A stretch of DNA of 64,000 nucleotides, taken from the NCBI GenBank assembly GCA_030737835.1, contig CM060849.1:11551716-11615715 (forward strand), in the 5' to 3' direction. This document shows positions 25,206 to 43,602 of this stretch, piece by piece. Origin of the DNA: Acorus gramineus. Taxonomy: Eukaryota > Streptophyta > Magnoliopsida > Acorales > Acoraceae. Numbering within the stretch: position 1 is the stretch's first letter; each line of letters starts with the position of its first letter. The position numbers and the translations under genes were made by a program. A model generated the notes under the pieces. It did no database searches, was not told the origin of the DNA, and was given only the letters and a program-made list of their open reading frames with translations.

Positions 25206-25515
25206 CTATTGATTGTTTAAGAAAAGAAAAAAAAAGTGGGGCCAGTGCACCACACTACATAGGGTTCCCTGCCCACGTGTAAATCTTTATAGTACAGCAA
25301 AGGACACATCTTTACAATTCTTGGCGAGGCTGTTTTGGGAGGAAAAAAAAAAGGTTCAGGGCAAGAGGCGGGCCCCTACCTCTCTCTCCCGATTCATCTT
25401 TCCCCAAAACCCCTCCCACTTTTGCCTCCCACCCAAGATGAACAATAAAAATAGGCCCTCTTTAATATATATCTAATCTTGTATATGGATCTGTTTTGGA
25501 GGTGAAGCAAAGACA
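25206..25515 (+). promoter_or_regulatory. Upstream region of unit 1 with a G-box
   Basis: CCCACGTGTAA at about 25273-25283 contains the G-box/ABRE core CACGTG; a related GCACACGTGCC lies upstream of unit 3 (about 30017). Both are followed by TTCTTGGCGAGGCTGTTTTG or TTCCTGGCGAGGTTGTTTTG. CTCTTTAATATATATCTAAT at about 25459 may supply a TATA element. Promoter function is inferred from position only. Confidence 0.35.
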
Positions 25516-25583
25516 TGGAGAGAGAGTTGCTGGTTATGAGGGTTGCCCTTCTCTCTCCATCTCCCTATGAAAATATCAGCCCT
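25516..25583 (+). ncRNA. A module 1 (unit 1)
   Basis: GGGTTG at 25540-25545 can pair with CAGCCC at 25577-25582 (one G-U). The loop is CT-rich. This is one of the shortest and best-kept copies. Confidence 0.45.
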
Positions 25584-25650
25584 ACACATATATATATACA
25601 AGGAAAATGTTACACTCAGTCCTTTTTATTCTGTTGTTTATACATGCATC

Positions 25651-25743
25651 CAGTCATGGCATGGCAAAGAAAAAGCTTTGGATGGCTTGATTTTGTTTTG
25701 TTTCAAGGCAACCAGTTTTTCTTTTGCAGCCATTTATTTGGGT
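25651..25743 (+). ncRNA. Truncated B module (hairpin only), unit 1
   Basis: It keeps the hairpin (TCATGGCATGGCAAAG, GGATGGCTTGA, TCAAGGCAACC, TTTTGCAGCCA) but lacks the C box, D box and terminal stem. The inner helix has changed on both sides (GCTTGA with TCAAGGC), so pairing survives. Confidence 0.4.
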
Positions 25744-25756
25744 AAAAAAAAAAAAA

Positions 25757-25838
25757 CAGTAGAGAGAGGATTGAAGGTTTGTGGGTTGCCCTTTCTCCTC
25801 TCCCTCAGCCAATGATCCTCACAAAAAACACAGCCCTT
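25757..25838 (+). ncRNA. A module 2 (unit 1, second type)
   Basis: Reads TTTGTGGGTTGCCCTTTCTC, then CAGCCAATGATCCTCAC, then ACACAGCCC. GGGTTG/CAGCCC pairing kept. The ATG found in other A modules is TTG/GTG here, against a start-codon role. Confidence 0.45.
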
Positions 25839-25954
25839 CCTTATGAAAAGAAAGAAGCGCTGATACACTCAGTCATTCCGTTTTGTATATTGAGGTGTAG
25901 CTCTTTTGCTCTCTCTCTCTCTCTCTCTCTCTCTCATACATACACACACATATT

Positions 25955-26159
25955 GAGGCAGTGATGATTATTAAGTTATGGTTGGTTTTTGAAACCGATC
26001 TCATACAGAGAAAGTGATTCCCTCACTGAATCCATTCATGGCGGGGCAAAATTAAAGCTTTGGATGGCCTGATTTTCATTTCAGGCAACCGGTTTCTTTT
26101 GTTTTTGCAGCCACTGATTTGGGTTGAAATCTGACTGAGAAAAGGCGAATCTGAGCCTC
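25955..26159 (+). ncRNA. B module 1: C/D-box snoRNA-like RNA, 205 nt
   Basis: Starts GAGGC-A-GTGATGA (5-bp stem half plus C box) and ends CTGA-GCCTC (D box plus other stem half). The body has a hairpin with three stacked helices: ATGGC/GCCA, GCAAA/TTTGC, and GCCTGA/TCAGGC closing a TTTTCATT loop. A second CTGA (GACTGAGAAAA) precedes the D box. C/D snoRNAs are usually 70-150 nt, so this is long. rRNA targets cannot be judged by eye. A CT microsatellite lies just upstream. Confidence 0.55.
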
Positions 26160-26640
26160 CTTTTTTTTTGCTATAAAATTTTTATGTACTCATTTGGATT
26201 TTGGATATTATAAAGTTTTTGGGTTTTAAATAATCTCTTTCATCTCATTGAGAAGTAAATGCAGTCTTTAAGGTGTTTGTTTTATTGCGTCTGTGAGAGT
26301 AGAAGTAATGAATTTGAGTAACTGCAAATGGAAGAATCACTCTGTATTTTGAATCTCATGACATTGTATGTGCTATCTGAGTTCAGTCCCTTGGAAGCTG
26401 AGTTTGTTCCATAGGTGATATTGTTTTGAGTTTCATTGTCGGAGAAACTGAGTTCAGTCCCTTTGGAAGCATTCTTTTGAGAACTCACCCACATGTTCCT
26501 CTCATTACATGAGTTGTTCATGTGAGGACTGCAATGCTGAAAACCATTGCAACGCTGAAAACCATTATGCAAACTCCAAAACAAATGTGAATCTTGGACA
26601 AGCATTTCAATTGAATGGCAGAACCAGTTTCAGGCATTGC
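26160..26640 (+). repeat. C tail of unit 1
   Basis: Contains GCAGTCTTTAAGGTGTTTG, TTTTATTGCGTCTGTGAGAG and, further on, GAATCTCATGACATTGTATG and GTGAATCTTGGACAAGCA, which recur after other B modules or near 34030. GAGTTCAGTCCCTT(T)GGAAGC occurs twice (about 26380 and 26450). The minus-strand frames here show no domain. Confidence 0.5.
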
Positions 26641-26809
26641 TACATAAATTGCAGAACTTAAAATTGCCAATCCATGTAGTGTGTTCATGGATTCCATTGA
26701 TTTAATGTATATCAAAATACTTGGTTTGGTAAAATTGGTTCAGAATTTTTCTTTATGCAATAATCTATTTCAGATAGATTTATGTGAGAACTAGGAACAG
26801 AGGGAATTT

Positions 26810-27150
26810 TGCATGGATCACACACAAATGAAGTATTTTAAACATCTTGTTTTTCTAGGGGACTTGGTTAACAGGATATTTCTTCATAGGAAAAAGATGC
26901 ACACAGCCCTAACTGCATTTCGTTGTTTTTCTTTTGTTTTTTTTTTAAATCACATTCACCCTTTGAAGTATATATTGAGATATATTAGTGTATTTTTTTT
27001 ATAGTAAAAAAATAAAAAATAAATTGAGTTATTTATTATGATAGGATTCATATACTATGATAATGTAGTATATACTATGTTATTATTGTGTATGAAGCTA
27101 TAAAACGGGCCGTAAAAAAATCTATGTGTATCAGTGCTATTATTCATAAA
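26810..27150. other. AT-rich spacer between units 1 and 2
   Basis: Nothing recognised; contains A/T runs and TATATTGAGATATATTAG-like sequence also seen near 42690. Confidence 0.4.
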
Positions 27151-27154
27151 CAGC

Positions 27155-27345
27155 TCAGTTTTTTTTTTTTTTTTTTTTCTTGGTAAACAAGGCCCACAAG
27201 AGCAAGTACACACAGGGAATAAGGCCTATAATCCAATTAAAACTTTTCATAAGAGGGATATACGTACTGGGATCAAACCTGGGTTGTCCACTAGAGACGT
27301 GTGGATCTCCAGTGGACGAGCCAGGTTTTGACAAGGTAATTGAGT
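27155..27345 (-). mobile_element. Probable retroposon (SINE-like) within the array
   Basis: The minus strand carries a B-box-like GGTTTGATCCCAGTACG and ends in an A-run of more than 20 (27161-27179), with TAGTGGACAACCCAGG upstream of the box. No target duplication was confirmed. It is inserted between units 1 and 2. Confidence 0.5.
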
Positions 27346-27480
27346 GACAATGACCTTCCTGAACATAAACAGCCCAGCTAGGCGAGGGGAGGGGATGCGC
27401 ATAAACAATGACCTTGCTAGGCGAGGGGATGTGCATAAACAGCCCAGCTAATTGAGTGACAATGACCTTCCTGAACATGG
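27338..27480. repeat. Short interleaved direct repeats
   Basis: AATTGAGTGACAATGACCTT (with CCTGAACAT) occurs twice and GCTAGGCGAGGGGA with GCATAAACA occurs twice within 140 bp, a local serial duplication. Confidence 0.7.
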
Positions 27481-28023
27481 AGTATGCAAGGCTACGTTTC
27501 ACATTGTTCGATGTGTTATGTAATGGCAACCGGGGAATGGATGTTTCACAAGCTAAGCTATATTTTTCAATGGGTTGATAAACCCAGTCTCTTTTATAGT
27601 ACAAAAGCAGTATCTCAATCAATTATATGCTTTACTACTGGAATATATATTGTCCTAGTATCTTATATACTCTACTCAATATAGTTTATGTTTGAAATTT
27701 TCATTATTATAAGTAAATGAAAATATGTATTGAATTATTTAGATATATATTTTATTTTTTTATTATAGTATGTACTTTGTTAGATGAATATATAATTAAA
27801 AAACAATGTTTTAAAAATCCCACTTAGGTCCCGATTAATCCCTCGCTTAGGTTTAGGTGGTCCGAGCCCTCTCCGCAGATAAGCACCCTTCCTTTCCCAA
27901 TCTATCATCCCCAGAACCCCTAATCCCCCGTTTGCCTCCCAAGACAAACAATAAAAATAAGCCATTTCAACATCTATCTAACCTTATAGATCTATCTGTC
28001 TTGGGGATGAAGCAAAGACCATG

Positions 28024-28119
28024 AAGAGAGAGTTGCTGGTTATGAGGGTTGCCCTTCTCTCTCTCTCCATCCTCACTTTTCCACTGCTTTTTGTCCCCCC
28101 AAAGGAAACTCTCAGCCCT
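28024..28119 (+). ncRNA. A module 3 (unit 2)
   Basis: GGTTATGAGGGTTGCCCTTC pairs through GGGTTG with CAGCCC at 28113-28118. The loop is longer than in A1 and CT-rich. The upstream 140 bp are a direct duplicate of those before A1. Confidence 0.45.
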
Positions 28120-28198
28120 GTATATATATATGCGTGTGTGTGTGTGTGTAAGGAAAATGTTATATTCAGCCCCCGTTTTTGTGTTGTTTATACATATA

Positions 28199-28245
28199 TC
28201 CAATCATGGAAGGCAACCACTTTTTCTTTTTGCAGCTATTTGTGT
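28199..28245 (+). ncRNA. Truncated B hairpin remnant, unit 2
   Basis: Only AATCATGGAAGGCAACCACT and TTTTTGCAGCTATTTG remain; the central half of the hairpin has been lost. Probably non-functional. Confidence 0.35.
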
Positions 28246-28246
28246 G

Positions 28247-28368
28247 GTGGTGAGGCTGATTTTGGGGGAAAAAACAGTAGAGAGAGGATTGCAGGTTTGT
28301 GGGTTGCCCTTTCCCTTCTCTCTCTCTCTCTCTCAGCCAATGATCCTCACAAAAATCCACAGCCCTTC
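28247..28368 (+). ncRNA. A module 4 with leader (unit 2)
   Basis: The leader GGTGAGGCTGATTTTGGGGG can pair with the downstream CAGCCAATGATCCTCAC (GTGAGG/CCTCAC), outside the GGGTTG/CAGCCC helix. A CT repeat has grown in the loop. Confidence 0.45.
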
Positions 28369-28498
28369 CTTATGAAAAGAAAGAGCGCTGTTACACTCAG
28401 TTCATTCCCATTTTTGCTTATGGAGGTCTCGCTCTCTCTCTCTCTCTCTCTCTTTCTATCTATCTATCCATCTATTTTTCTGTCACATTATCCATATT

Positions 28499-28700
28499 GA
28501 GGCAGTGATGATTCTGATTGGGTTTTGGAAGATACAGACACTTTGGTGATTCCCGCACTTATTAGTCCATTCATGGCGGGGCAAAAAAGGATTTGGATGG
28601 CCTGATTTTCTTTTCAGGCAACCGATTTTGTTTTGCAGCCATTAATTTGGGTATTGGTGTGGGTTGGAAATCTGACTGAGAAAAGGCGAATCTGAGCCTC
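28499..28700 (+). ncRNA. B module 2: C/D-box snoRNA-like RNA, 202 nt
   Basis: GAGGCAGTGATGATTCTG to AATCTGAGCCTC. The hairpin is fully kept: CATGGCGGGGCAAAA, GGATGGCCTGATTTTC, TTCAGGCAACCG, TTTTGCAGCCA. Differs from B1 mainly in the segment between C box and hairpin. Confidence 0.55.
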
Positions 28701-28779
28701 CCCTTTCACAGTTTGACCTTATCAAGGGTTATAGCATCCTCTCTCCTTTTCATTCGTTCTTTTTTTTTTTTTTTTTTAT

Positions 28780-28945
28780 TCTTCTGTAATAGTTATATTG
28801 TATACTCATTTGGATTTAGGATGTTATAATTATTTTGAGTTTTTATTCTTTCTTTCAGTTCTTTGATTCTCATTGAGAACAAATGATGTTTCTAAGATGT
28901 TTGATTTACTGCGTCTATGAGAGAAGTTAAAATTTTATCTGGAAT
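28780..28945 (+). repeat. C tail of unit 2
   Basis: TGTAATAGTTATATTG, TCATTTGGATTTAGG, TTCTAAGATGTTTGATTTAC and GCGTCTATGAGAGAAG align in order with the other C tails. CTTAAGATCTCATGAGATTG follows at about 29022. Confidence 0.55.
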
Positions 28946-29239
28946 GTTCTCTGTGTTCTTGAACAGAATGAGAATGAACACCCTGAATCTGGCTTTGCCA
29001 GTGAGGATTGTTTGTGCCCTTTCTTAAGATCTCATGAGATTGTGTGGATGGTGTGAAACTTTGAATTGCATAACCACAAACCCAGGTTTCATGAAACCGT
29101 GATACATATCATGTAGTGTTGTATCAAGAACATAAATGTGGGAGACGTTTCGACCGTATATGTGGGATTGGTGATGCTCTATAGCTAAGGTGACGGATAT
29201 CCAATTCCACAATGGGAGTTTGTATAGTGAGGGGTGATC

Positions 29240-29985
29240 GGGTGTATGTGTCTTCCATTAGTTGGATGTCTCTTCTAATTCAGAGGTTTGGCGATGAGAG
29301 CCGTTCTGATTAGAACTGTATTTCTAACCTTTCTTTGCTTGTGTTTTGTGTTATATTCTTCTTTCTTTTAGAATTTGTAATAAAATTGGAAAGTAGACAT
29401 TTAATTATTTTTTTTTCCACTGATTTAATATAAATGTGAAAGTTTAATACAAAGAAGCTATCAAATCAAATGCTCCACAAATCCGCAGTCCCAGATACCA
29501 TTGTTATTTGACTTATTTGAACATTTGCTTTGTTTTTTTACTATTTGGTCAATGATGTAAGCTATTCTGATACAGGTAATTATTTTAGTATCGATAAGAA
29601 ATAAATTATTTTTTGTTTCGCTGTATATTTAATTATTTTTGTTGGATAACATAATGATAAAAATTTTAGTCCTTTGACATGGGTAAGAATTTAATAAAAA
29701 AAAATAAAAAAAAATTATAAAAATATAAAAAAAATGATTTGATAGATGAAATTTTTCATTAAAACGTGATGAAATATGGGTTTACATGCAATCTCTTAAA
29801 CTAGTATAATTAATTAGGTGGATAACACAATTCGAGGATATCTAAAATACCAGTATCAATTTAGTTTTATCTATTTTAATATATATCTATACAGACATGT
29901 TTTTATATTATTTTATTCGTATCTGTTCTTCCTCTCTTCTACATGCTGAACAGTTGCGAAAGAAATGGCAGAGATATAACAACTC
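29240..29985. other. Spacer between units 2 and 3
   Basis: AT-rich with no gene, repeat or motif recognised. Confidence 0.45.
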
Positions 29986-30172
29986 CAACCTTGTTTTATT
30001 TTCTCCTTGCAAGCAGCACACGTGCCAAATTTCACATATATGAAAATTAATAAAAAAAATTCCTGGCGAGGTTGTTTTGGGAAAAACACAACCAGACAGA
30101 CCTCTCCCCAGGGCCCAATTCATCTATCCCCAAACCACAACATGTGAACTGTGGAGGGGAAAAAAATGGAGA

Positions 30173-30258
30173 TTGGAGAGGGGGTTTAGCTGGTTATGAG
30201 GGTTGCCCTTCTCCTTCTTCATCTCCCTTCTCCTCTGCCCTACAAAAATAACAGCCCT
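30173..30258 (+). ncRNA. A module 5 (unit 3)
   Basis: GGGGTTTAGCTGGTTATGAG variant, shared exactly with A12. GGGTTG pairs with CAGCCC in AACAGCCCTATT. A purine run before and CCCTTCTCC after the helix are also complementary (GGAGAGGG with CCCTTCTCC). Confidence 0.45.
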
Positions 30259-30343
30259 ATTGCATGTGAACTTGAATTAATCCATCCACCCAAAGAAAGA
30301 AAGAAAAAAAAAAACATTTTCTCAACCAATTTTTCTGAAGGTA

Positions 30344-30409
30344 AAGAGAGGGGTTGCTGGTTATGAGGGTTGCCCTTTCTCCTCTCTTCCCTATAAAAAT
30401 CACAGCCCC
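30344..30409 (+). ncRNA. A module 6 (unit 3)
   Basis: Compact copy: GGTTGCTGGTTATGAGGG, CCCTTTCTCCTCTC, then TCACAGCCCC. Helix kept. Confidence 0.45.
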
Positions 30410-30490
30410 TCAAAACACTTCTGCAGAAATAACTGCAGAAGGGTCTGAAGTGTAACAGCGCTCTTTTTAACATTTATCTAATATTGCTTG

Positions 30491-30578
30491 TGTGGCTGTT
30501 CTCAGATGAAGGGATGCAGGTATGAGGGTTGCCATTCTCCTTCTTTCATTTCCTCTACCTATGGAAAATAACAGCCCT
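30491..30578 (+). ncRNA. A module 7 (unit 3)
   Basis: Leader GTGGCTGTTCTCAGATGAAG, then GCAGGTATGAGGGTTGCCAT and AACAGCCCTAT. The third successive A copy in this unit, showing that A modules also multiply alone. Confidence 0.45.
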
Positions 30579-30648
30579 ATACATATATGTATATTGATAT
30601 ACATGGGAAAATGTTATGCACTGTCCTTTTTATGTGTGTGTGTGTGTA

Positions 30649-30730
30649 TTCATTCATGCCAGGGCAAAAGCTTTGGATGGTCTGATTTTTTTGTTTCAGA
30701 CAACCAGTTTTTTGCAGCCATTTATTTTTG
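30649..30730 (+). ncRNA. Truncated B hairpin with a compensatory change, unit 3
   Basis: The inner helix reads GTCTGA/TCAGAC where most copies have GCCTGA/TCAGGC: a C-G pair has become U-A by changes on both sides. The outer parts (CATGCCAGGGCAAAAG, TTTTGCAGCCA) remain. No C or D box. Confidence 0.45.
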
Positions 30731-30734
30731 TTGT

Positions 30735-30873
30735 GATGCTGATTTGGGGGAAAATGTAGAGGGGTTTGCTGGTGTGAGGGTTGCCCTTTCTCTCTCTTGT
30801 CTTTTTTTTTTCTTCCTCAGCTGATGATCCTCACATCTTTTAGTCTCCCAAGATGCGAAAAAAAAGGCAGCCC
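30735..30873 (+). ncRNA. A module 8 (unit 3)
   Basis: GATGCTGATTTGGGGGAAAA leader, GGTGTGAGGGTTGCCC, CAGCTGATGATCCTCAC, then GGCAGCCC. Main helix kept; the leader helix is weakened. Confidence 0.4.
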
Positions 30874-31100
30874 TTCATAAAGATCATGGTTATGATGCGC
30901 ACAGTTACCCTTTCAGGTTGCATATTTAGGTCTCTCTCTCTCTCTCTCTCTCTCTCATATTATGTTCTGTTTGAGCAGATCTGTTACAGAAACACTGTTA
31001 TTCCCTCTCAGCTTATAGTGATGATACAAACACCCGGGGAACATGGTTGCATATTGAGGTGTACCTCTTTTGCTTTCTCTCTCACACATTCATACATTTT

Positions 31101-31337
31101 GAGGCAGTGATGATCTTGTTATGTTATGGTTGGTTCTTGAAACTGATCTGTTACAGATACCATGTTGTTCTCCCCCCTGCATCCATTCATGGCTGGGCAA
31201 AAAAAACAAAAAAAAACTTTGGATTGCCTGATTTTTTTTAATTCGGGAAACTGGTTTTTTTTTTTTTTTTTTGCTGCTACTGAATTGGGTATTGGTTTGG
31301 GTTGAAAGATGTCTGAGAAAAGGCAAATCTGAGCCTC
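31101..31337 (+). ncRNA. B module 3: C/D-box snoRNA-like RNA, 237 nt, partly degenerate
   Basis: C box, D box and GAGGC/GCCTC stem are intact, but the hairpin is eroded: a 19-T run, TTGCCTGA with TTCGGGAAAC, and GCTGCTACTGA for GCAGCCACTGA. The longest copy because of A and T run growth. Confidence 0.5.
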
Positions 31338-31379
31338 TCTTATTCTTTTACTCCCCTTTCACAGATCCCTTCCATCATG

Positions 31380-31486
31380 ATTTGGGGGAAAACAAGATAC
31401 AAAACACTAAATTTGTGCTTTAGGGGATTGCTGGTTTGAGGATTGCCCATTCCTCTCTCTGTCTTTATATTTACCACCTCAGCCCT
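31380..31486 (+). ncRNA. A module 9 (unit 4)
   Basis: GGTTTGAGGATTGCCCATTC with CTCAGCCC: the helix has one A-C mismatch (GGATTG), so this is one of the weaker copies. Confidence 0.4.
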
Positions 31487-31514
31487 TCATAAAGTCATGG
31501 AAAATGATGTACTA

Positions 31515-31651: not shown

Positions 31652-31741
31652 CTACAACCTCAGTTGCATATTGAGTGTAGCTCTTTTGCTCGGGAACGGT
31701 TACTTCCACCCCATAAAATATTAAGCCCTACCCAATATATT

Positions 31742-31946
31742 GAGGCAGTGATGATTTTATTATGTTGTAGTTGGTTTTTGATGATATAATACAGAAACCA
31801 TGTTATTCCCTACGGCATCTGTTCATGGTGGGGCAAGAAAGCTGTGGATGGTCTTAGGCAACCGGTTTCTTGCAGCCATTTATATGGATGTGGTTGGGTT
31901 ATTAAATTGAGTAGATATTGTCTGAGGAAAGGCGAATCTGAGCCTC
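31742..31946 (+). ncRNA. B module 4: C/D-box snoRNA-like RNA, 205 nt
   Basis: Ends intact (GAGGCAGTGATGAT, AATCTGAGCCTC). The middle helix is GCAAGAAA/TTTCTTGC, eight pairs, where B1 has GCAAA/TTTGC, so an A-U pair has become G-C. The outer helix uses a G-U pair (TGGT/GCCA). The inner helix is shortened (TCTTAGG). Confidence 0.5.
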
Positions 31947-32079: not shown

Positions 32080-32225
32080 AGTTTTATGTATTGAGTTAAA
32101 TATTATGATTATTCGTGGCTTTTAATCTTAATGATTCTTATTGAAAAGCATATGCAGTCCTTTAAGGTGTTTCTTTTATTGCTTCTTGGAGAAGAGCACC
32201 TAACTTCACTTATGCAAGATGCAAG
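32080..32225 (+). repeat. C tail of unit 4
   Basis: CAGTCCTTTAAGGTGTTTC, TTTTATTGCTTCTTGGAG and AAGAGCACCTAACTTCAC match the family order. Confidence 0.5.
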
Positions 32226-33105: not shown

Positions 33106-35550
33106 GCATTATGTTAGTTGTCCTAAAAACCATAGTAGATCGAAAGCTGCAATTCCAGCTCACATTGGAGTTGGAACACCGCCTTGGATCTAAACACGGG
33201 CGCGCCCATGACTGAACCTCAGAATACCTTAGATTCCAGCTGACCATGAGAACCCACATTGGGATTTATCTTGCTTGGAAATGCATGTTGGTAAGAGTGT
33301 GTTTGAACTGCCATTGCGTGAGGGTGGTTGCAATGTGCGTACAACTAAACCATTTTAGAAAAAATATGAATTTTTTTATTTTTTTTTGTATGATCCTCTT
33401 TGGTATTCATACTATCAAAATACTCAGTTACATCCTATATATCAAAAGCATGATCTTCTTTGACCTCCTGTATACGTTTATACGAGGATTGTATAATTGG
33501 AGATATCCACTGCCGAATATGATACTCCACTAGGCTCATTGTTAGCTGTAATCTGGTTGTCTTCCTTGCAATTCTATCAGGTGCCTGAACTACCTTCCGG
33601 GCTACTTTTACAAAAATGTATTGGGGCTGTACCCATATCCATGAGTTTGATTTGAGATATGTATACCTGAAGTTGAGTAGGCCCTTGTCCCTTACCTGTC
33701 AAAATGCTGAGGACTAGCTGTGCGTCACTACATACATGCGCGTTTTTAAGCCCCGTCTTCCTCGTCTGACTGATTTCCAGTGCATTCTTGAGTCTCCATT
33801 TGGATTGTGTATGACCAAATTCTACTGGAGTATGCAGCCCCCAGTATTTGCCAAGGTGACATGCTGATGTGCAGCTCCGGCCACGCGAGAGATTAGATCC
33901 ACACTGCCATCAGTTACCACAGATATTTTATGCTGTTGCTTTGCACTGGATGCCTAACTGTCCAGAAGGAGTTCATAGTGTCATCACCTTTATTTTTAAA
34001 CAGCATAAGCATTCCCACATCATTAGAAGAAATATGAATGTTGGACAAGCAATTGGTTTGAACTGGGAATCATGGGCGATCGTTTTTCAATTTGAAGTCA
34101 CTCGAAACATTGAATATATGTGTTTGTAATATGTATGTTTATAAAACAATATTAATTAACCAAGTGCTAAACTCTATAGATGGCTAATAATACACTTTTT
34201 TCTTTTTTCAGGCTAAGGATAACTTCCATTTGTCATAGTTTTAACACCCGTTTAGATTAGCGGTGGAGCGGATTTTATGGCGTGTGCATTGGCTCAAAAC
34301 TGTACAGCCAATCAAAACACAAAGTGGTGTTGGGTGTTTTAGATGCATTTCTTTTATGTGTAAAACAGCTTGTATTTGAGAAGCTCTTGAACCAATGCTT
34401 CTCAAATGCAGAGTTTCAACCCCTTGTCTATCAAAAATTAGGGGTTATTGTACCCTCTGCATTTCTAAACTTCTAAACGCATGGTTCTTTTGATAAAATC
34501 TAGATATTCCATGTAACTATGGTTGAATTTGAGTAAAGAATCAGTGTGAAGGATCTGTTGCATCGCCTTCGATGTATGATTCAAACTTATCTGGGGTTAA
34601 TGCAAAACCATTCAGTCTCGTTTTCAATTTCAATTTTTTTAAAAAAAATTATATTTTTGAGGTATTTATTTTTATAAAATGTGAAAGATATATTACAATG
34701 AATTGGATGATATTTGAAAATTTTCAATGAGGTATATAACTCATTACAGTGAATAGAGGGGACTAACGATGTATATGAGATTATATTTATGATCGAAAAA
34801 AGGGTTGATTATACCAATACTATGAATGTAAATTGTAATATTTTAAAAATTGAACCGTTTAATTAATTGAAAAAATCACTGGATGAAAATATATTAATAT
34901 AAAAAATATTAATTAATTATAATATAAAAAATATATTAATTATCAACACTAAATAAAACTATAAAATGTTTTAGAAAATATTTCAATAAAATTTTATTTA
35001 AATTCATAACATGATGTTAATATATAAAATCTAATTTTTTTTATTAGATATCATTTTTTATAAAGTAATTAGTCTCAGTTTCTATAAATAAAGAATATAT
35101 CAGTTTAATCAACCTGTTTCAGTCAACCAGTAGGTCCATGGGGTTTTATCGACTTTTTATATTATTGGATTTTAAGGATAAATCAAATCAAAATTTATTA
35201 TGGGTGATGGTTTGACCGGTTCAACCGGCAAGATCAAGTTTTAAAACTTTAAAACATTATTAAATCGTTGCCGGTACATTAAAACTCAAGTTTTCATGAA
35301 TATTTTTACACTTGAGTTTTTAGTAAAGATAATTTTATAAAATCATGTTTGATAGGGGTATATGCACAAGAATTCCAAAAAGTCAAAAAAGCAAAACCTG
35401 CTGTCAATTTGTTCTAAGGTTGCATTTGATAGTACAATTGAACAGTTTTTACACAAAAAAAAATTGTTTTTAAACATATTTTAAACAAATAATGTTCAAA
35501 ATTGCAGCATAAAATTAGTTGTGCAATCTCACTACCTAACCCTACTTAAA
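33106..35550. other. Gap in the RNA array
   Basis: 33100-34480 is less AT-rich but no frame has a recognisable domain. GAATGTTGGACAAGCAATTG near 34035 matches the far tail of unit 1, so part may be array-derived. 34600-35400 is AT-rich, with TTGACCGGTTCAACCGGC (about 35210), a motif found in plant repeats. Confidence 0.4.
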
Positions 35551-35559
35551 TCTTTGGGG

Positions 35560-35673
35560 GTGAAGCCCTTCTTAGGTGAAGGGGAAACAGTGGAGAGGGG
35601 GATTGCTGGTTATGAGGGTTGTCCTTCTCCATTTCCCCCTTCTCCTCTCTGCTCTATGAAATAAACAGCCCTA
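35560..35673 (+). ncRNA. A module 10 (unit 5)
   Basis: GGTTATGAGGGTTGTCCTTC, then AACAGCCCTAAAC; helix kept. A second leader (TTTATCTAATATTGTTG, TGAGGCTATTGTCAGG) follows at 35701, but its A module is cut off by a CT repeat. Confidence 0.45.
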
Positions 35674-35779
35674 AACAATTTGCTGAGCGTATCATTTTCC
35701 CTTTATCTAATATTGTTGTTGTGAGGCTATTGTCAGGTGAAGTGAAACAATGGAACTCTCTCTCTCTCTCACCCATATT

Positions 35780-35986
35780 GAGGCAGTGATGATTTTGTTA
35801 TGTTCTTTTGGTTTTCTTTTAAACCAATCTGTTACAGACAGCATGTTATTAACTCACAGCTTTGCTCTTTCAAGGCAAGACAAAAAAACCTTTGGATGGC
35901 CTTATTTTTTTTGTTACAGGCAACCAGTTTTTGCAGTCACTGATTTGGGTTTGAAATCTGTCTGAGAAAAGGCGAATCTGAGCTTC
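35780..35986 (+). ncRNA. B module 5: C/D-box snoRNA-like RNA, 207 nt
   Basis: The only copy with a changed 3' stem half, GCTTC, which still pairs with GAGGC by a G-U wobble. C and D boxes intact. The inner hairpin helix is weakened (GCCTTA versus ACAGGC). Confidence 0.5.
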
Positions 35987-36009
35987 TCTTTTTTCTTAAA
36001 TTCACTCGT

Positions 36010-36115
36010 TTTTATATTATAACAAATTTTGGGATTTAAGTCATCTTTCATTGCCTTGGTTCTGAGGGGTAAATGGGGTCTTTAAGGTGCTTGTTGTATT
36101 GTCTCCGAGAGAAAT
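36010..36115 (+). repeat. C tail of unit 5
   Basis: GGGGTCTTTAAGGTGCTTG and TTGTATTGTCTCCGAGAG match the family, then the sequence runs into unit 6 within 100 bp, giving the tightest unit spacing in the array. Confidence 0.45.
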
Positions 36116-36222
36116 GCCCATATCCGGTATAATGCAACAATCTTCCAAACAGCATACATTGATATGATAGAATAACAGGCATTTTTGTTTATAAAAGACA
36201 AGCTTTTGAGGTGGAAGAGAAA

Positions 36223-36305
36223 ATGGAGAGATGTTGGTATGAGGGCTGCCCTTCTCTCCTCATACAGCCCAAAAATAATATCAACAATAATAATAATACA
36301 GCCCA
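36223..36305 (+). ncRNA. A module 11 (unit 6, CTG subfamily)
   Basis: GGTATGAGGGCTGCCCTTC. GGGCTG (36243-36248) pairs perfectly with CAGCCC (36265-36270); a second CAGCCC lies at 36300-36305. The G-U of the TTG subfamily is a C-G pair here. Confidence 0.45.
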
Positions 36306-36376: not shown

Positions 36377-36585
36377 GAGGCAATGATGATTGTTTTGTTG
36401 GGTTGATTTTATGTCTGAACTGACAATGAATTGAAAGCACACCTCTCTTATTAGCATCCATTCATTTCATGGCAGGGCAAGCATTGGATGGCCTGATTTT
36501 TGTTTTTTAACTCATCAGGGTAACCTTCTTGCAGCCATTGACTTGGGTGTTGTTTGGTTTGTGTGAATCCCTTGATCTGAGCCTC
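36377..36585 (+). ncRNA. B module 6: C/D-box snoRNA-like RNA, 209 nt (CTG subfamily)
   Basis: GAGGCAATGATGAT to GATCTGAGCCTC. Middle helix GCAAG/CTTGC, inner helix CCTGA/TCAGG with AGGGTAACC. The second CTGA before the D box found in B1 is absent. Preceded by a GCT trinucleotide repeat rather than CT. Confidence 0.5.
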
Positions 36586-36650: not shown

Positions 36651-36742
36651 GAAAGGAGAGGGGGTTTAGCTGGTTATGAGGGTTGCCCTTCTCCTCCTCC
36701 ATCTCCCTTCTCTTCCCCCCATATGAAAACAAAACAGCCCTA
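36651..36742 (+). ncRNA. A module 12 (unit 7)
   Basis: Leader TTTATCTAATCTTGCAGG then AAGCTGTTTTGGGTGAAG; core nearly identical to A5. AAACAGCCC closes the helix. Confidence 0.45.
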
Positions 36743-36778: not shown

Positions 36779-36881
36779 GTGAGGCTGAACTTATATGAAG
36801 TGAAAACAGTGGAGAAGGGGGTTGCTGGTTATGAGGGTTGCCCTTCTCCTCCTCCATTTAGATGGAAATTAACAGCCCTAT
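36779..36881 (+). ncRNA. A module 13 (unit 7)
   Basis: Leader GTGAGGCTGAACTTATATG; core GGTTATGAGGGTTGCCCTTC with TTAACAGCCC. A truncated B stub (CATTCATGGCAGGGTAAAAG, 36961-36985) follows. Confidence 0.45.
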
Positions 36882-37032
36882 GATTGTATTTCTATATACA
36901 TGGGAAAATGATATGTCCTTCCTTTGTGTGTGTGTGTGTGTGTGTGTATGTCTATATATATTCATTCATGGCAGGGTAAAAGCTAATATATGGCCTCTCT
37001 CTCTCTCTCTCTTTCATGCGCACTTACATATT

Positions 37033-37247
37033 GAGGCAGTGATGATTTTATCATGTTCCGTTTGGTTTTCTTTTGGAACCAATCTAATACAGACAGTATA
37101 TTATTCACTCACAGCTTTGCCCATTCATGGCGGCGCAAAAACCTTTGGAAGGCCTGATTTTTTTTTATATATGTTTCAGGCAACCGTTTTTTTTGCAGCC
37201 ACTGGTTTGGGTTGAAATCTGTCTGAGAAAAGGTGAATCTGAGCCTC
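37033..37247 (+). ncRNA. B module 7: C/D-box snoRNA-like RNA, 215 nt
   Basis: Well-kept copy: GAGGCAGTGATGAT, CATGGCGGCGCAAAAA, GGAAGGCCTGATTTT, TTTCAGGCAACCG, TTTTGCAGCCACTG, AATCTGAGCCTC. The T-run before TTGCAGCC varies in length. Confidence 0.55.
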
Positions 37248-37284
37248 TCTTCCCTCTCACAACTTAAGTTCAAACTAAGGTCTC

Positions 37285-37590
37285 TCCTCTTCTTCCTGTA
37301 ATGGTTTTATATACATATTTGGATAATATAACTAATATTGGGATTTTACTTGTATGTTGTATTGCCATTAAGAGAAGTGTCAACTTCACCGATGACAATG
37401 CAATACATATTCTGTATTGGGATTCGGATGACAACTTAACTGATGGCTGTTCACCAAGAACGAGTTTGGCCTTGCCTGTGGAAACCCTGCTTGTGTTTCT
37501 GAAGTTCTCAAGATCTCATGAGTCTTTAAGGTGTTTGATATATTGTGTCTATGAGAGGAGTACCAAACTTATTCAAGTGCAATAATCACT
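37285..37590 (+). repeat. C tail of unit 7
   Basis: TGTAATGGTTTTATATAC, TTTGGATAATATAACTAAT, then GTCTTTAAGGTGTTTG and ATTGTGTCTATGAGAGGAG, with a 150-bp insert in the middle carrying CTCAAGATCTCATGAG. Confidence 0.5.
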
Positions 37591-37879
37591 CTTATTTTGA
37601 AGCCAGAGGTCATAAACAATAACACCCATTATATCACACCAGTTTTTATCAGGCTCAGATTAAGATATGGACACATGTTATTTCACACATTTAATATTTG
37701 AGTTTTGTGAAGATTTTAAATATGTGTCGGTCCCTAGTTAGTCCCTCATAGGAAATAACAAGTTTGATCAATCTCAGGCAAAGGGGGGATATTGATGTTA
37801 AGAGTGTTTTCCTTACCCCTCCCAGTCCATAACCCCATGATCATATTAGCCTTTTCAGATGATCTATAAATTTTCTAAT

Positions 37880-38014
37880 TTTTGGGGGCGAAGCTGTTTT
37901 GGGTGAAGAAAAAAGACTGAAGAGGGAGGTTGCTAGTAATGACTTGTGAGGGTTGCCAATCTCCTGCATGTATGTATACATATGTGTATACGTGTATGCA
38001 TACAACATCCCTAT
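37880..38014 (+). ncRNA. A module 14, degenerate
   Basis: Leader GGGGGCGAAGCTGTTTTGGG intact, then GTGAGGGTTGCCAATCTCC and ACAACATCCC in place of ACAGCCC. TATG/TATAC repeats have invaded the loop. No B follows directly. Confidence 0.35.
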
Positions 38015-38137
38015 ACATGTATGTATACATATACAATTAACATAAGTATGCTGTTACTCTCTCTCTCTCTCTCTGCGATGGAGAGAGAGTGATATATTAA
38101 AATATTGACATTCATTGAAAAAAATCCAATACTGACG

Positions 38138-38204
38138 AGAGTGATGCTGGTATGAGGGCTGCCCTTCACTCCCCCCACTCTATTTTTTTGGAAATACAGC
38201 CCAA
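38138..38204 (+). ncRNA. A module 15 (unit 8, CTG subfamily)
   Basis: GCTGGTATGAGGGCTGCCC with ATACAGCCC; perfect GGGCTG/CAGCCC helix. Confidence 0.45.
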
Positions 38205-38317
38205 AAAATAATAATAAAATAAATAATTATACAGCCCATGCTTTTCTTTGTTTTTCTTTCCTTCTGATTCCACATGCTTTTGCTGCTGCTGCTGTTATTT
38301 GTGTTTCTTTTATTTTA

Positions 38318-38530
38318 GAGGCAATGATGATCTAGTTCTTCTGTTGGGTGGGTTTTGTGTTCTGTGACTTCACAATGAACTGAAATCAGACCTCTTTCCC
38401 TCTACTTCCTTTCACTCATGGCAGGGCAAGCTTTGGATGGCCTGATTTTTTTAAATCATCAGGGCAACCGTTTTGCAGCCATTGATTTGGGTGTGGTTTG
38501 GGATTTTTCTATGGTCTTGATCTGAGCCTC
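38318..38530 (+). ncRNA. B module 8: C/D-box snoRNA-like RNA, 213 nt (CTG subfamily)
   Basis: GAGGCAATGATGATC to GATCTGAGCCTC. The inner helix is CCTGAT/ATCAGG, six pairs; GGCAACCG, TTTTGCAGCCATTGATTTGG retained. A GCT repeat precedes it, as in unit 6. Confidence 0.55.
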
Positions 38531-38793: not shown

Positions 38794-39150
38794 CTTAGCG
38801 TCCGTTTGAAAACACAGATTGAAAATTAGCTTTTGAAATAAAGCTGTTTTTAAAGATGATTTTAAACTTTGATTTTTATTGGAATGTTTTTTTTTTTTTA
38901 ATTCAGGAATCAATATTTGAAAACAGGCGATGTTTAACAGAGAATGTTACTTTTAAATTAAAAAAATCGATTCCGAAAAAAAAAAACATTATTTTTTAGC
39001 TCCTCAAAATACGGATTTTAAGAGAAAAAAATAAAAGGAATACAGTTTCCAATTATGAATAAAGCTGTTCCGTTTGACTACATGATTTTAACTTTTTAAC
39101 TTTAAAAAAAACAAAAGCTGTCTCAAACGTGCAATCAAACGGGATCTTAG
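38794..39150. mobile_element. MITE, GGGTCCGTTTG type, copy 2
   Basis: Ends CTTAGCGTCCGTTTGAAAA and (reversed) CTAAGATCCCGTTTGATTG. Body aligns with 12174-12512. Inserted downstream of unit 8. Confidence 0.75.
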
Positions 39151-39310
39151 AAAAATACCTATATAGATCTAATTAATTCTTTAAATTAAATTTTAGCTCT
39201 CAGATAAAAAAAAATAAGTTTTGAATAATTTTAAACTTTAAAATAATTTAATTCTTTGATCAAACGGGGATCGAAGTATCTATTTAGATACTCTACATAT
39301 TAGAGTTTTA

Positions 39311-39711
39311 GAGCATCTTCAATAGACATGTTAACTCATTAATTAGTATTAGATTTTTAAAAAATATGTAAAAATGGTGCTCTAATGGAAGTGTTAAAGG
39401 CAATCTAAATATAGGTCCCGCCTGTCATATGTTAAGAGAAGTGTTAATTGTCACTAGTACTTTAGTCAATCAAACGTAGGCCCACCATTTAAAATATTAA
39501 AAAAAAAATATTTTGGGTGGGTGGAGAAATGTGAGTGGGTGGAGAGATGAGTCCACTATTATTTTATTTTGGTTAGTTATTTAGTTAATCCATTGGAATA
39601 ACCATAATCAACTAAGTAATAATGTAGTAAATAAGTGTTTAGTTGAGCGATAAAGTGTTGATATGATATTTTAACATCTTTATTAATTAACATGTTCATT
39701 AAAGATGTTTT
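39311..39711. mobile_element. MITE with GAGCATCTTCAATAG ends
   Basis: Left end GAGCATCTTCAATAGACATG and reversed right end AAACATCTTTAATGAACATG are inverted repeats continuing to TTAA(C/T)TCATT-like sequence. A GAGCATCT(C/T)CAAT end is common among plant MITEs. Boundary precision is a few bases. Confidence 0.6.
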
Positions 39712-39929
39712 TAATTAAAGAGAATAAATACATAAATAAACTCATAAACCGATCAAGGAACGGGACATCTAAAAAAATATCAACAATTTAAATATGAAAA
39801 AAGCTCTCTAATAATAAAAATGATATAATGCTAACAACAGATGCCTTCCAATTTTCAAAAAGCACTCATTGATATGACACAACAGCTGGTCTTTCTCTAT
39901 AAAAGACAATAATGTTGGAAGCAGTAAAA

Positions 39930-40054
39930 GTAGGGGGGAGAGAAAAAAAAAGAGAGGTGAAGCTGGTTCGAGGGCTGCCCTTCCCTCCCTCAAATATCTC
40001 TATTTTCTTGGTCACCAGATATAAAAAGAAAAAGAAAGAAAACAGCCCCACCTG
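39930..40054 (+). ncRNA. A module 16 (unit 9, CTG subfamily)
   Basis: GCTGGTTCGAGGGCTGCCC: the ATG is TTCGAG here. AAACAGCCCCACC closes the perfect helix over a long A/T-containing loop. Confidence 0.45.
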
Positions 40055-40134
40055 GTTCATGGCTTTCTTTGTTTTCAGTTGATCCTCTTTATGTGCTTCT
40101 TCTGTTGCTGCTGTTGTTGTTTGTGTGTCTATTT

Positions 40135-40349
40135 GAGGCAATGATGATCATTCATTCTGTTGTGTTGGCTGTGTGTCTAGTCTGACTTCATAATGAACTG
40201 AGAGCATATCTATCTCTCCACATCTATCCATTCATGGCAGGGCAAGCATTGGATGGCCTGGTTTTGAAAACTGATCAGGGTAACCGTTTTGCAGCCATTG
40301 ATTTGGGGTGTGGTTTGGGATTTTCTATGATGTTCTTAATCTGAGCCTC
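40135..40349 (+). ncRNA. B module 9: C/D-box snoRNA-like RNA, 215 nt (CTG subfamily)
   Basis: GAGGCAATGATGATC to AATCTGAGCCTC. Hairpin CATGGCAGGGCAAG, GGATGGCCTGGTTTT, GATCAGGGTAACCG, TTTTGCAGCCATTG. CCTG/CAGG inner pairing. Preceded by GCT/GTT repeats. Confidence 0.55.
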
Positions 40350-40930
40350 ACCCTTTTTTTTTTCTCAAGTTTTGTTTGCTTCAGTTTTTGGGTTTGAGGT
40401 TTCTATGGTTTTGGACTGGGTCATCATTGTTTATTGACCGAATCCATTGGTTGTATCAGACTACGCAACATATAAACCGAATTTTATATTGAGTAGTACT
40501 GTGTCTAACAATTGTGTAGCTCGATATTGATAATATCTAGGTCTGATTGGATTTAAAACTGTTTAATTGTAGAAGGGTAGAGCTTTGATTTTTTCGTCTG
40601 TATATTTAGATATGGCGATGTTCATTTTGAGTTGTTTTCTTTTAATACTATGATTTTGTTGATCTGACTTTGGATTAAAGGGCATTTGATAATTATCATA
40701 ACGAAAGAAAAATAATTACACATCAAAAAGGGAAAAAATTAAATTAAAAGATAGTATCCAAGCTCCAGTTTGGGAGACGAACTGGTCACTGATGGAGAAT
40801 AAAAAGGAATAGAGATGAATAAGTCTCAAAATCTATTTATTTACAAGGAATAAGTGTATCTATTCCAAGAATATACGAGTAAACTGTGGAATAGATATGA
40901 ATAAGTCTCAAAATCTATTTATTTAGAAGG
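40350..40930. other. Spacer after unit 9
   Basis: AT-rich. GAATAAGTCTCAAAATCTAT occurs twice (about 40819 and 40898), with AATAGA.ATGAATAAG, a local 80-bp duplication. Confidence 0.5.
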
Positions 40931-40934
40931 AATA

Positions 40935-41345
40935 AGCTCCCATTTGCTTTTGGTATAAGACCCCGGATAAACCTAGATAAGAATTTTCAAGTGTTTGTTT
41001 ACCCTGGATAACCTCTGATAAAGTATGTCATAATAAACCCTGATAAAGTGGTATATGGATTCAACCTCTGTAATTAAAGTATTCAAGGTTATTTCACCCA
41101 AAGAATATGTGGGTCCACTGTCAATTCAACTGTCACCACTTCTTATAAATCACATGTCAAATCAACTGTCATTACTTTTGTACATTTTATAAATCATTAT
41201 CCATATTTTATTCACATTTTATCCAAACAACAAAACATTTATTATTACGTTTACCAATCAAACACAAAATCATTTTATCTTTATTTATACTCACTTATGT
41301 TTGGATAAATGTATATCCTAGAATAAAATCTAAGTGTATTTATTC
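40935..41345 (-). repeat. Dispersed repeat R4, inverted copy
   Basis: Reverse complement shows the same landmarks as 47995 and 58505 (GTATAAATAAAGATAAAATG, AACGTAATAATAAA, CACATATTC). The plus strand reads AATCATTTTATCTTTATTTA and AATATGTGGGTCCACTG. Confidence 0.65.
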
Positions 41346-41399
41346 CAGAATATATGAGTAAACTGTGTTAGTATTATTTTATCAATCTATTCTATCGGT

Positions 41400-41933
41400 G
41401 TAAGGGGACTCTAGCATTAAATTTTTTTGAATATTTTTACATATATCAATAAATAAATAAATTAATGCACGAAAAGAACATGTTGGTGTACATAAGATCA
41501 CTTCTAATATTATTCATCAAAGGGTGCTAATACACTCAATCCTTATTGTGGTTGAAGTTCAAGTAACTTTCTTCAAATCTATATATACTGGGTTAGGTTA
41601 GTAGTATAATCTAGCTTAAGAAAATATTAAAAAAGTATACATTTGATCCATTTAAATATATACAGTTTTATTTGTAAAAATGTGCATTAATATATGTATA
41701 TATCTCGAAAGAATTTTTATTAGACACAAACATATACATTAAATCGATTAAGAAAAAATGTGTAAAAATGTTGTTAAGAAAAAAAATAAAAATATATATG
41801 TTACATCTAATTGACTAAGTACTTTATTAGGCATAAGCATACTTTAAAATAAATTTTAAAGCCGTGTTAGGATACTACTAATTAAACTGGCCCAAAATAC
41901 TAGCCTAATTGAAAATGTGTGTAGGTGTCTCTA
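41400..41933. other. AT-rich spacer
   Basis: Nothing recognised. Confidence 0.45.
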
Positions 41934-42388
41934 GGGTAAATGAGTTGAGCTTTGACATGTTCAAGCTCAACTTGTTTATAATTAAGCTCAGTTTGGAATC
42001 AAACTTAATTTTGTATTTAATTTTGGCCCATTTGGTTTGTGAAAAAACTCGGTTGAAGTTTCGCTCGGTTCATTTGTAAAAAAAAGCTCGAGGTGCAAGC
42101 TCAAACCAAGGTTCGAGCTTAAGCTCGTTTAACTCATTTAGCTCAATAAAAACTAATTTAGCGACTAAAACATGTGAAAAACAGATAACATATCAAAAAA
42201 AAAATAATCATATGCGAAAAATTATCACTAAACAATTATATTCGAAAGAGTTCGTATAGACTAATTGCTCAGTTTGAGCTCGGCTATTTTATAATTAAGC
42301 TTTAAAAAGTATTCAAACAATGAGCCGAGCACGAATGAGCTCCAACTGAGTCAAACCCAAACCACTTGGCTCTTTTACCACTCTTAGG
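41934..42388. mobile_element. hAT-like MITE rich in GAGC/GCTC, copy 2
   Basis: Left end TCTAGGGTAAATGAGTTGAG, then AGCTTTGACATGTTCAAGCT exactly as in copy 1 at 17034. Reversed right end CCTAAGAGTGGTAAAAGAGC. Less well preserved than copy 1. Confidence 0.6.
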
Positions 42389-42930
42389 TTTCACATCTTC
42401 CGTTTGGGATCAACCAAACGAAGGAAAATGATATCTTCCGTTTTTTATTTTTATTTTTAATTATACACTAATTGAAATACATGATATAAAAAATGATAAA
42501 GATACAACTTCTTACAAATTCAGGTTTAAATTTAACTTTTGAAAAAAAAAACTGATTCTTAGACCTGTTTTCCAAAAAGGAAAAAGATACACACAGCCCC
42601 TATTGGAGCTCTAATTATAGTTCATCCCGTTTTTTTTTTTAAAACAAAATCATACACTCACCATTTGAAATACATGCTATTATATAAAATGAAGTATGTA
42701 TTAGTGTATTTTTTTTATAAAGAAAAAAAAAAGATTATATATTATATATTATGATAGTGCAGTATATCATAACGGACGGTAAAAGAATTGCCTATAACAG
42801 CGCTCTTTCAAAAAGTCCCCGGTGTAGCAAAGAAAACATGGAGCCCAAAATATTGGTCCAGTTGGTAACTTTTAGGCTTATCCTGCCTCATTTATACCCC
42901 AAAGACTAACAAAGCAGCTTTAGTTTGGGT
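42389..42930. other. Spacer before unit 10
   Basis: AT-rich; GGAAAAAGATACACACAGCC near 42580 resembles AGGAAAAAGATGCACACAGC at 26888, so it may be array-derived. Confidence 0.4.
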
Positions 42931-43088
42931 GGCGAGCCTCTGATTTGGGGGAAAATAGTGGACAGAGGAAAGCTGGTATGAGGGTTGCCCATTCCTCCAT
43001 CTCCACCTATCTTCCCCCAATGCCCATGATCCTCCTATCTTCAAATCCCCCACCTTCCCAGATGGAAAAAAAAAAAAAAACAGCCCTT
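42931..43088 (+). ncRNA. A module 17 (unit 10)
   Basis: Leader GGCGAGCCTCTGATTTGGGG, core AGCTGGTATGAGGGTTGCCC, AACAGCCC after a 15-A run. Helix kept. Confidence 0.45.
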
Positions 43089-43154
43089 TCGTTATTCACC
43101 CCTTCTAATTATAAACATCAACCTATAAGCATTTCATTTGTATTTATTTTCTTA

Positions 43155-43305
43155 GTGAGGCTGATTTGGGGAAAAAAAAAAGGCAGAGAGATTTGCTGGT
43201 TTGAGGGTTGCCCTTATCTCTCTGTCCTTTTATCCTTCTCCCTCAGCCAATGATCCTCACATCTGTTGATCTCCCCCCCCCCCCCCCCCCCCCCCAACAC
43301 AGCCC
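43155..43305 (+). ncRNA. A module 18 (unit 10)
   Basis: GTGAGGCTGATTTGGGG pairs with CAGCCAATGATCCTCAC as in A4; core GGTTTGAGGGTTGCCCTTA and ACACAGCCC. A C-run of more than 20 interrupts the 3' side. Confidence 0.45.
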
Positions 43306-43382
43306 TTCATAAAAAAAAAAAAAAACAAAGAAAAAAAAAATTGTCTCTCTCTCTGTCACACACACATACACATATACATACT

Positions 43383-43602
43383 GAGGCAGTGATGATTTTG
43401 TATGTTATGGTTGGTTTTTGCAACCGATCTAAAACAGATCATGTTCTTCTTCCCTCTGCGTCCATTAATGGTGGGGCAAAAAGCTTTGGATGGCTTGATG
43501 TTCTTTGATTCAGGCAACCAGTTCTTTTGCAGCCAATGATTTGGATGTGGTTTGGGCTATGATTCATATTGGAACATCTGATACGACAAGAATCTGAGCC
43601 TC
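43383..43602 (+). ncRNA. B module 10: C/D-box snoRNA-like RNA, 220 nt
   Basis: GAGGCAGTGATGAT to AATCTGAGCCTC. The inner helix GCTTGA/TCAGGC pairs with one G-U; outer TGGT/GCCA also by G-U; middle GCAAAA/TTTTGC intact. Last unit; no C tail follows. Confidence 0.55.

Follow-up and report, generated by a model that had tools for sequence, protein, structure and literature searches.

A tandem array of putative box C/D-like, structured non-coding RNA genes in Acorus gramineus

What kind of gene has been amplified in Acorus gramineus where some 18 kb of DNA are filled with recurring sequence modules? The window analysed is a stretch of 64,000 nucleotides (nt) of GenBank assembly GCA_030737835.1 (CM060849.1, positions 11,551,716 to 11,615,715, forward strand). 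It belongs to contig C3; the plant genome in question measures 398.6 Mb. Four modules are distinguished: the A element, the M hairpin, the B domain (which encloses an M hairpin) and the C tail. Probably (at a probability of roughly 0.55), non-coding RNA genes of a single structured family stand here in tandem, and their products would form a box C/D-like particle without guide function. The family is real, conserved and structured, and is absent from Rfam at threshold and from the literature searched; its function is suggested by sequence. Two further large arrays (V and S), a small cluster on contig C7 and two solitary genes (loci L034 and L040) belong to it.

Paired structure of the modules

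The M hairpin is a stem-loop of 72-109 nt, laid out as CCA-TCA-TGGC..GCAAAA..TGG..GGCCTGA / TCAGGC..CCA..TTTTGC-A-GCCA-TGA-TGG; in its stem, a 3-nt bulge is asymmetric and the A/T runs vary. Across 36 copies, 92.0% of 822 cells are paired. Double changes were found at 8 of 24 pairs, against 3.5 ± 1.4 after shuffling (1/500). The double-change cells number 15 (4.1 shuffled, 0/500) and the further pair types 27 (23.3 shuffled, 14/500). The covariation score is 0.148, compared with 0.121 for shuffled data (0/500) and at most 0.074 for slid registers. The alignment behind it (A3) has 36 rows, obtained from 32 by leaving out one locus-spanning M copy and adding five copies from C7 and L034. The two arms pair better with their own than with permuted partners, overall (2/20000), in the window (2/5000) and, less strongly, in array V (206/5000), with copy W_31816 misparsed in this test as in the anchored counting. 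The lengths of the A runs and T runs in the arms are correlated (Spearman 0.64). Compensatory variants of the apical stem occur on C7 (UUUGA/UCAAA and UUUGA/UCAAG) and in L034 (UCCCC/GGGGG). A reading of TTTTTGCAG as a splice site is disfavoured because this sequence is an arm of M, whose stem covaries.

The B domain consists of M enclosed by GAGGC-ART-GATGA and CTGA-GCCTC. With this spacing, exactly three bases remain for the bulge, as in a box C/D kink-turn. At the level of sequence, its closing motif is box C/D kink-turn geometry. A C box (RUGAUGA) and a D box (CUGA) near the ends, together with a terminal stem, are present in 10/10 B domains of the window. Strictly intact C/D-closed units number 26 in seven sources (window 10, V 7, S 5, C7 2, L034 1, L040 1). 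In the terminal stem of 5 base pairs (bp), seven substitutions were counted in 29 copies, six of them keeping the pair as G-U; degenerate copies c7d, c8 and c9 are left out of this count.

The A element comprises, from 5' to 3', a purine-rich arm, GCTGGTTTGA, the loop GGGYTGCC, an arm rich in pyrimidines and, some way beyond it, CAGCCC. At offset 2 the stem forms 6.55 of 9 pairs with its own partners and 5.96 with permuted ones, a value reached in 0/10000 permutations (65 modules; A cores without an upstream anchor are dropped). Offsets 1, 3 and 4 are null, offset 0 gives 3/10000, and weaker forms of the test give 10/10000 and 58/20000. A variant of the stem on C7 reads AGAGGGAUGAA/UUCAUCCCUCU. 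CAGCCC, the complement of GGGYTG, lies at most 131 nt 3' of 51/64 A cores: 17/17 in the window (strict rule), 12/23 in V, 17/19 in S and 5/5 elsewhere. The reversed motif was found at 0/64 cores and CAGCCC in the upstream stretch at 14/64, where earlier A elements sit. The A element is likely an H-type pseudoknot, as judged by this complementarity, in which the loop GGGYTG would pair with CAGCCC 3' of the stem.

Two further blocks accompany A elements. One is conserved and reads AGCCRATGATYCTYA, or GTCCGATGATTCCTA in the case of L034; both solitary genes and the A elements with a long loop carry it after the stem and before CAGCCC (window 25807-25821 and 43245-43259; L040 268-282; L034 1755-1769). 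A leader-like block, GTGAGGCTGATTTTGGGGGAAAA (at most 6 mismatches), stands 5' of many A elements (25324, 28250, 30066, 30733, 36628, 43155); its GGCTG could compete for CAGCC.

The array in the window

A preliminary description of the locus had reported 18 A motifs, 10 B ends and at least six C tails on one strand, and took them for a tandemly amplified structured RNA gene. The first two counts and the common strand were reproduced. The A cores number 18, lie between 25.5 and 43.6 kb and are all on the + strand (positions in the list below). In the whole window, 35 A-core matches were obtained on both strands at up to 3 mismatches, against 10.3 expected from shuffles. A stricter anchor gives 17 array cores, the degenerate core 37948 being dropped, and the A-core listing also holds a decoy at 16968, outside the array. 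Twelve M hairpins are located in 25.5-43.6 kb (+ strand); the M 3' arm motif TGCAGCCATTGATTTGGGT has 11 matches in the window (at most 3 mismatches), with 0.03 expected. The box-C-like 14-mer is present in 10 exact copies, each with a TCTGAGCYTC 3' end, and these bound 10 B domains on the + strand with an enclosed length of 202-237 nt. The number of C tails depends on how they are defined. The block CTTTAAGGTGTTTG, 3' of B, has five array copies (26266, 28890, 32160, 36080, 37524) and one further copy outside the array at 21738, counted with a tolerance of 8 mismatches in 27, under which an apparent chance match at 4656 is included as well. By an alternative definition, block TGWCTGAGAAAAGGCGAATCTGAG, there are 7 copies. 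The features are as follows.

25512..25582, + strand: A element of unit 1 (core 25538, CAGCCC 25577)
25642..25741, + strand: free-standing M hairpin before the second A of unit 1
25760..25836, + strand: second A element of unit 1 (core 25781, CAGCCC 25831)
25955..26159, + strand: B domain, box C/D-type closed hairpin (M 26029-26122)
26243..26353, + strand: C tail block 3' of B (core 26266)
28021..28118, + strand: A element (core 28044, CAGCCC 28113)
28275..28365, + strand: A element (core 28299, CAGCCC 28360)
28499..28700, + strand: B domain (M 28564-28650)
28873..28922, + strand: C tail block
30174..30257, + strand: A element (core 30198, CAGCCC 30252)
30343..30408, + strand: A element (core 30365, CAGCCC 30403)
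30500..30577, + strand: A element (core 30524, CAGCCC 30572)
30647..30729, + strand: free-standing M hairpin, compensatory C-G to U-A change in the apical stem
30750..30873, + strand: A element (core 30776, CAGCCC 30868)
31101..31337, + strand: B domain (M 31180-31288)
31415..31485, + strand: A element, GGATTG variant (core 31438, CAGCCC 31480)
31742..31946, + strand: B domain (M 31816-31887, apical stem strongly shortened)
32143..32192, + strand: C tail block
35590..35671, + strand: A element (core 35614, CAGCCC 35666)
35780..35986, + strand: B domain (M 35863-35948)
36063..36112, + strand: C tail block
36190..36196, + strand: TATAAAA, candidate promoter, 51 nt 5' of the A core of a short unit
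36222..36304, + strand: A element, GGGCTG variant (core 36241, CAGCCC 36265 and 36299)
36377..36585, + strand: B domain (M 36455-36546)
36655..36740, + strand: A element (core 36678, CAGCCC 36735)
36810..36878, + strand: A element (core 36833, CAGCCC 36873)
37033..37247, + strand: B domain (M 37118-37210)
37507..37556, + strand: C tail block
37920..37970, + strand: degenerate A element without CAGCCC (core 37948)
38136..38237, + strand: A element, GGGCTG variant (core 38154, CAGCCC 38197 and 38232)
38318..38530, + strand: B domain (M 38409-38490)
39898..39904, + strand: TATAAAA, candidate promoter, 72 nt 5' of the A core of a short unit
39945..40048, + strand: A element, GGGCTG variant (core 39970, CAGCCC 40043)
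40135..40349, + strand: B domain (M 40225-40306)
42955..43086, + strand: A element (core 42980, CAGCCC 43081)
43183..43305, + strand: A element (core 43203, CAGCCC 43300, stem GCAGAGAGAU/AUCUCUCUGU)
43383..43602, + strand: B domain (M 43459-43544)
21611..21792, + strand: orphan C-tail copy 5' of the array

Directly 5' of the array, a zf-RVT domain was identified at 24013-24447 (+ strand), probably the remnant of a retrotransposon.

Other family members, conservation and promoter signals

The 18-kb span of the preliminary description is real and takes in a single one of the three large arrays present in the genome. Two are located on C3 in inverted orientation and one on C6. Array V lies on C3, inverted, about 25-36 kb past the end of the window, and array S on C6; where V and S match best, the stretches mostly follow one another in the same order. 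On C4 lies a piece that copies 845 bp of array V at 99%. Genes for an ABC transporter and dirigent proteins were noted near V (L002, L009), and an NB-ARC gene near the C4 fragment (L006). Pattern searches also yielded compact units in the C7 cluster (L010, L011) and the solitary full genes L034 (C3, 22.5 Mb) and L040 (C6, 14.78 Mb). The best non-self match of L040 is L034, with 72% over query positions 7-260. The compact form seen on C7 and in L034 and L040 is 5'-A, a short-repeat linker, B-3', with one C/D-closed domain. The solitary copies hint at the origin of the arrays. This inventory is incomplete, as several matches outside the arrays, among the 88 A-core matches in the genome, were left out. 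A degenerate isolated B unit resembling array copies was seen on C3 at 25.04 Mb (L038, 2058-2265). The box-C 14-mer matches L032, L033, L035, L036 and L037 and the M-motif match L039 proved unrelated on inspection.

In a collinear segment of V and S, identity is 669/713 (93.8%) within modules versus 1238/1411 (87.7%) outside them (Fisher 6.8e-6). The values for a second segment are 271/287 (94.4%) versus 553/643 (86.0%), at 1.3e-4. A module mask taken from the other sequence gave similar values.

Promoter-like boxes were found at several members. In L040 a telo-box, AAACCCTA, is located at 64 and a TATA box, CTATAAAAG, at about 92, both 5' of the RNA. Telo-boxes in reverse orientation lie 5' of the A core in two cases, by 69 nt at L010:5386 and by 266 nt in L034 (L034:1718); none was found near two further C7 genes. 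In the window, TATA-like boxes precede the A cores of 2 of 3 short units (36190, 39898). Because the promoter-like boxes precede A, this element is presumed to lie near the 5' end of the RNA and B at its 3' end.

Weighing of the readings and comparison with known RNAs

Several observations weigh against an array of structured RNA genes. AAACCCTA occurs on neither strand of the window between 24 and 45 kb, and neither an upstream sequence element (USE) nor a TeloSII element was found convincingly in the array. TATA-like strings are common in the AT-rich region of the array, and one of the three short units has no clear one. A T run 3' of GCCTC is not present in every copy. Modules are not better kept throughout in 2 of 8 unit comparisons: between 35550-36110 and 36780-37610, M reaches 0.81 and the spacer 0.86, and between window 30150-31360 and S only 12/21 of the C/D motif are kept. 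Exact CAGCCC is missing from 11/23 A cores of array V. The GGGYTG-CAGCCC pairings inspected vary only as G-C/G-U or by single mismatches, so the pseudoknot is without covariation proof. The M arm permutation test is not significant in array S alone (804/5000). Folding energies are mostly mildly below those of shuffled sequences (z -1.31, -0.91, -1.63 and -1.46); L034 alone among the copies folded is strong (z -3.85). The array copies are related, which inflates the shuffle tests; the slid registers are the better control. When the B domains were simply aligned with MAFFT, RNAalifold predicted 14 pairs, none of them with a double change. This result is taken as misalignment of blocks that differ in length, and therefore anchored counting and alignment A3 were used. 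The covariation that the preliminary description named as support was seen in M and not in the plain B alignment. The tandemly amplified structured RNA gene it described fits best, given the covariation in M, the register of the A stem, the better conservation of modules than of spacers, the lack of kept frames and the absence of an Rfam match at threshold.

A known RNA family was searched for in Rfam 15. At gathering score only a lone degenerate 5S ribosomal RNA (rRNA) match was returned in the window (5550-5668, - strand, 62.3 bits), perhaps a 5S-carrying retroelement or a pseudogene; nothing was returned for the array, in line with the earlier failure to assign a family. A relaxed scan of 25-44 kb gave 16 matches, all below gathering. 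The best (mir-297, E 4.5e-5) fall on a TA-rich repeat at 37964-38034; the remainder have E of at least 0.1, among them snoR144, an H/ACA model, which covers 31126-31284 of a B domain and scores 27.9 bits where 100 are required (E 0.1). For L034 and L040 no match fell on the units, and the sole match, mir-135, lies outside the unit. In the literature searched, no occurrence of the family motif strings was found, nor any such array in topic searches.

It is unlikely that the array is a source of microRNAs (miRNAs) or phased small interfering RNAs, with M hairpins or antisense transcription feeding Dicer-like enzymes. Hairpins arrayed on one strand, the stem-loop M of 72-109 nt and weak miRNA-model matches on A (mir-483, mir-1175, mir-9201, MIR2670; E 0.1 to 1.7) would fit such precursors. 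These matches are, however, far under gathering scores, the bulge and the variable A/T runs of M are unlike a miRNA duplex, and conservation spans both arms as well as the separate A and kink-turn motifs. Amplification of a known plant long non-coding RNA (lncRNA) missing from Rfam is quite unlikely. The example considered is HID1, described as a nuclear RNA of 236 nt with snoRNA-like domains and a structure conserved between Arabidopsis and rice. The compact unit is similar in size, but HID1 is described with two small nucleolar RNA (snoRNA)-like domains, against one plus a pseudoknot-like element here; the two were compared by description. A canonical box C/D guide snoRNA with an expansion, modifying rRNA or small nuclear RNA, would account for box C, box D and the terminal stem of 5-6 bp. 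Such a guide is doubtful, since the sequence 5' of box D differs between subfamilies and no Rfam snoRNA model matches at threshold. Complements of two pre-D sequences match within the arrays and at a few isolated sites, and show no tandem matches like those of ribosomal DNA, which may be missing from the assembly. Least credible is a coding role, with A or M specifying micropeptides that are short and secreted or of the MAGQxLDGL type. An ATG does stand in many of the window's A cores (..LLVMRVALL), and the M of short units, ATGGCAGGGCAAGC.TTGGATGGC, reads MAGQALDGL. Against this, most A cores of V and S lack an ATG and the reading frames of both arms change from copy to copy. Coding is disfavoured because the spacings of blocks are random modulo 3 (12/12/8 and 12/10/10) and 22/32 M copies contain in-frame stops. 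The shift of frames between units noted earlier is thereby borne out, and no consistent coding frame was found.

A transposable element or satellite, in which structured repeats without cellular function were spread by mobile-element activity, is improbable for the array and applies to one fragment of it. Loci L012-L031, chosen by matches to M or box C patterns, carry in 20/20 cases V 25753-25903 joined to about V 26175-26345 (L004, minus strand), at 84-95% identity per piece. The 12 loci L012-L023, compared mutually, have a common block of up to 1.15 kb. L013 and L014 lie in one longer duplication, and not all loci are therefore separate insertions. The element ends in inverted repeats starting GGGTTAAATGCATATAA, about 40 nt by eye; of four loci inspected, all showed the 5' end and three the 3' end. 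At up to 2 mismatches, at least one such terminus is present in 20/20 loci, and it flanks the fragment on both sides, 1.0-1.4 kb apart, in 12 (L013-L017, L019, L020, L022, L023, L027-L029). It was not found in the window, L004, L007, L008, L010, L011, L034 or L040, and array V has one single match (L003:9673). A second fragment with one such terminus was seen in L041. The dispersed copies are read as a fragment captured by a DNA transposon and not as the origin of the family. The preliminary description had named identity to a dispersed transposon as an argument against an RNA gene; this identity exists for the captured fragment only and not for the array units. Further points against this reading are the large degree of collinearity between V and S, the better preservation of paired modules, the lack of the termini in array S and the existence of two solitary full genes.

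If the locus is an array of RNA genes, a compact gene would be transcribed by RNA polymerase II from a TATA promoter, with a telo-box in some cases. A 15.5K/L7Ae-type protein could bind the kink-turn and protect the 3' end, and the A pseudoknot near the 5' end might offer a second surface for binding protein or RNA. The variable linker would join the 5' pseudoknot to the 3' kink-turn domain. The product would be a stable nuclear RNA that serves as a scaffold instead of a methylation guide, and array units have gained extra A and M modules, which would give longer, multivalent RNAs. Tentatively, the family could represent an undescribed class of plant ribonucleoprotein RNA (5' pseudoknot plus 3' kink-turn-closed hairpin) that arose from one or two solitary genes and expanded into three arrays, whose modular, multivalent products would each hold several pseudoknots and hairpins. 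Few long RNAs of plants are known to have a structure backed by covariation. This family offers dozens of natural variants in one genome besides two solitary genes. Its arrays illustrate the gain of modules by a non-coding RNA gene through duplication, and a piece of a structured RNA gene is carried about by a DNA transposon.

Among known systems, box C/D snoRNAs, including long ones of the U3 type, share RUGAUGA/CUGA, the terminal stem and the 3-nt bulge geometry. The units described here differ from them: they are 133-237 nt long, enclose a long hairpin, keep no guide and have the A element at the opposite end. In telomerase RNA a pseudoknot is combined with a snoRNA-type 3' domain, which resembles the 5' pseudoknot-like and 3' snoRNA-like parts of the present RNA. 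A telomerase template (AAACCCTA) was found on neither strand in 24-45 kb of the window, and the copy in L040 sits 5' of its TATA box. GUT15 has a tRNA-like part, in contrast to the present family, for which ARAGORN reported 0 genes in the window and in 8 loci. CR20/GUT15 is a plant lncRNA family conserved in angiosperms according to a review. HID1 (HIDDEN TREASURE 1) is likewise a plant RNA, short and nuclear, whose structure is conserved and includes snoRNA-like domains (PMC10226578, PMC4563214, PMC9673970, PMC9032736); the accessible text of these sources describes no arrays, and HID1 is set apart by description. The sno-lincRNA lncCOBRA1 of Arabidopsis is intergenic, 500-600 nt long, of snoRNA-type structure and with a telo-box promoter, and is a proposed scaffold (PMC9175010); it has two domains with SNORD59 homology. 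Two snoRNA domains per transcript, as in lncCOBRA1 and HID1, were not found in the compact units, which have one. In the present family, one C/D-like closing motif is placed round an unrelated hairpin and combined with a 5' pseudoknot-like element, and the genes occur in arrays.

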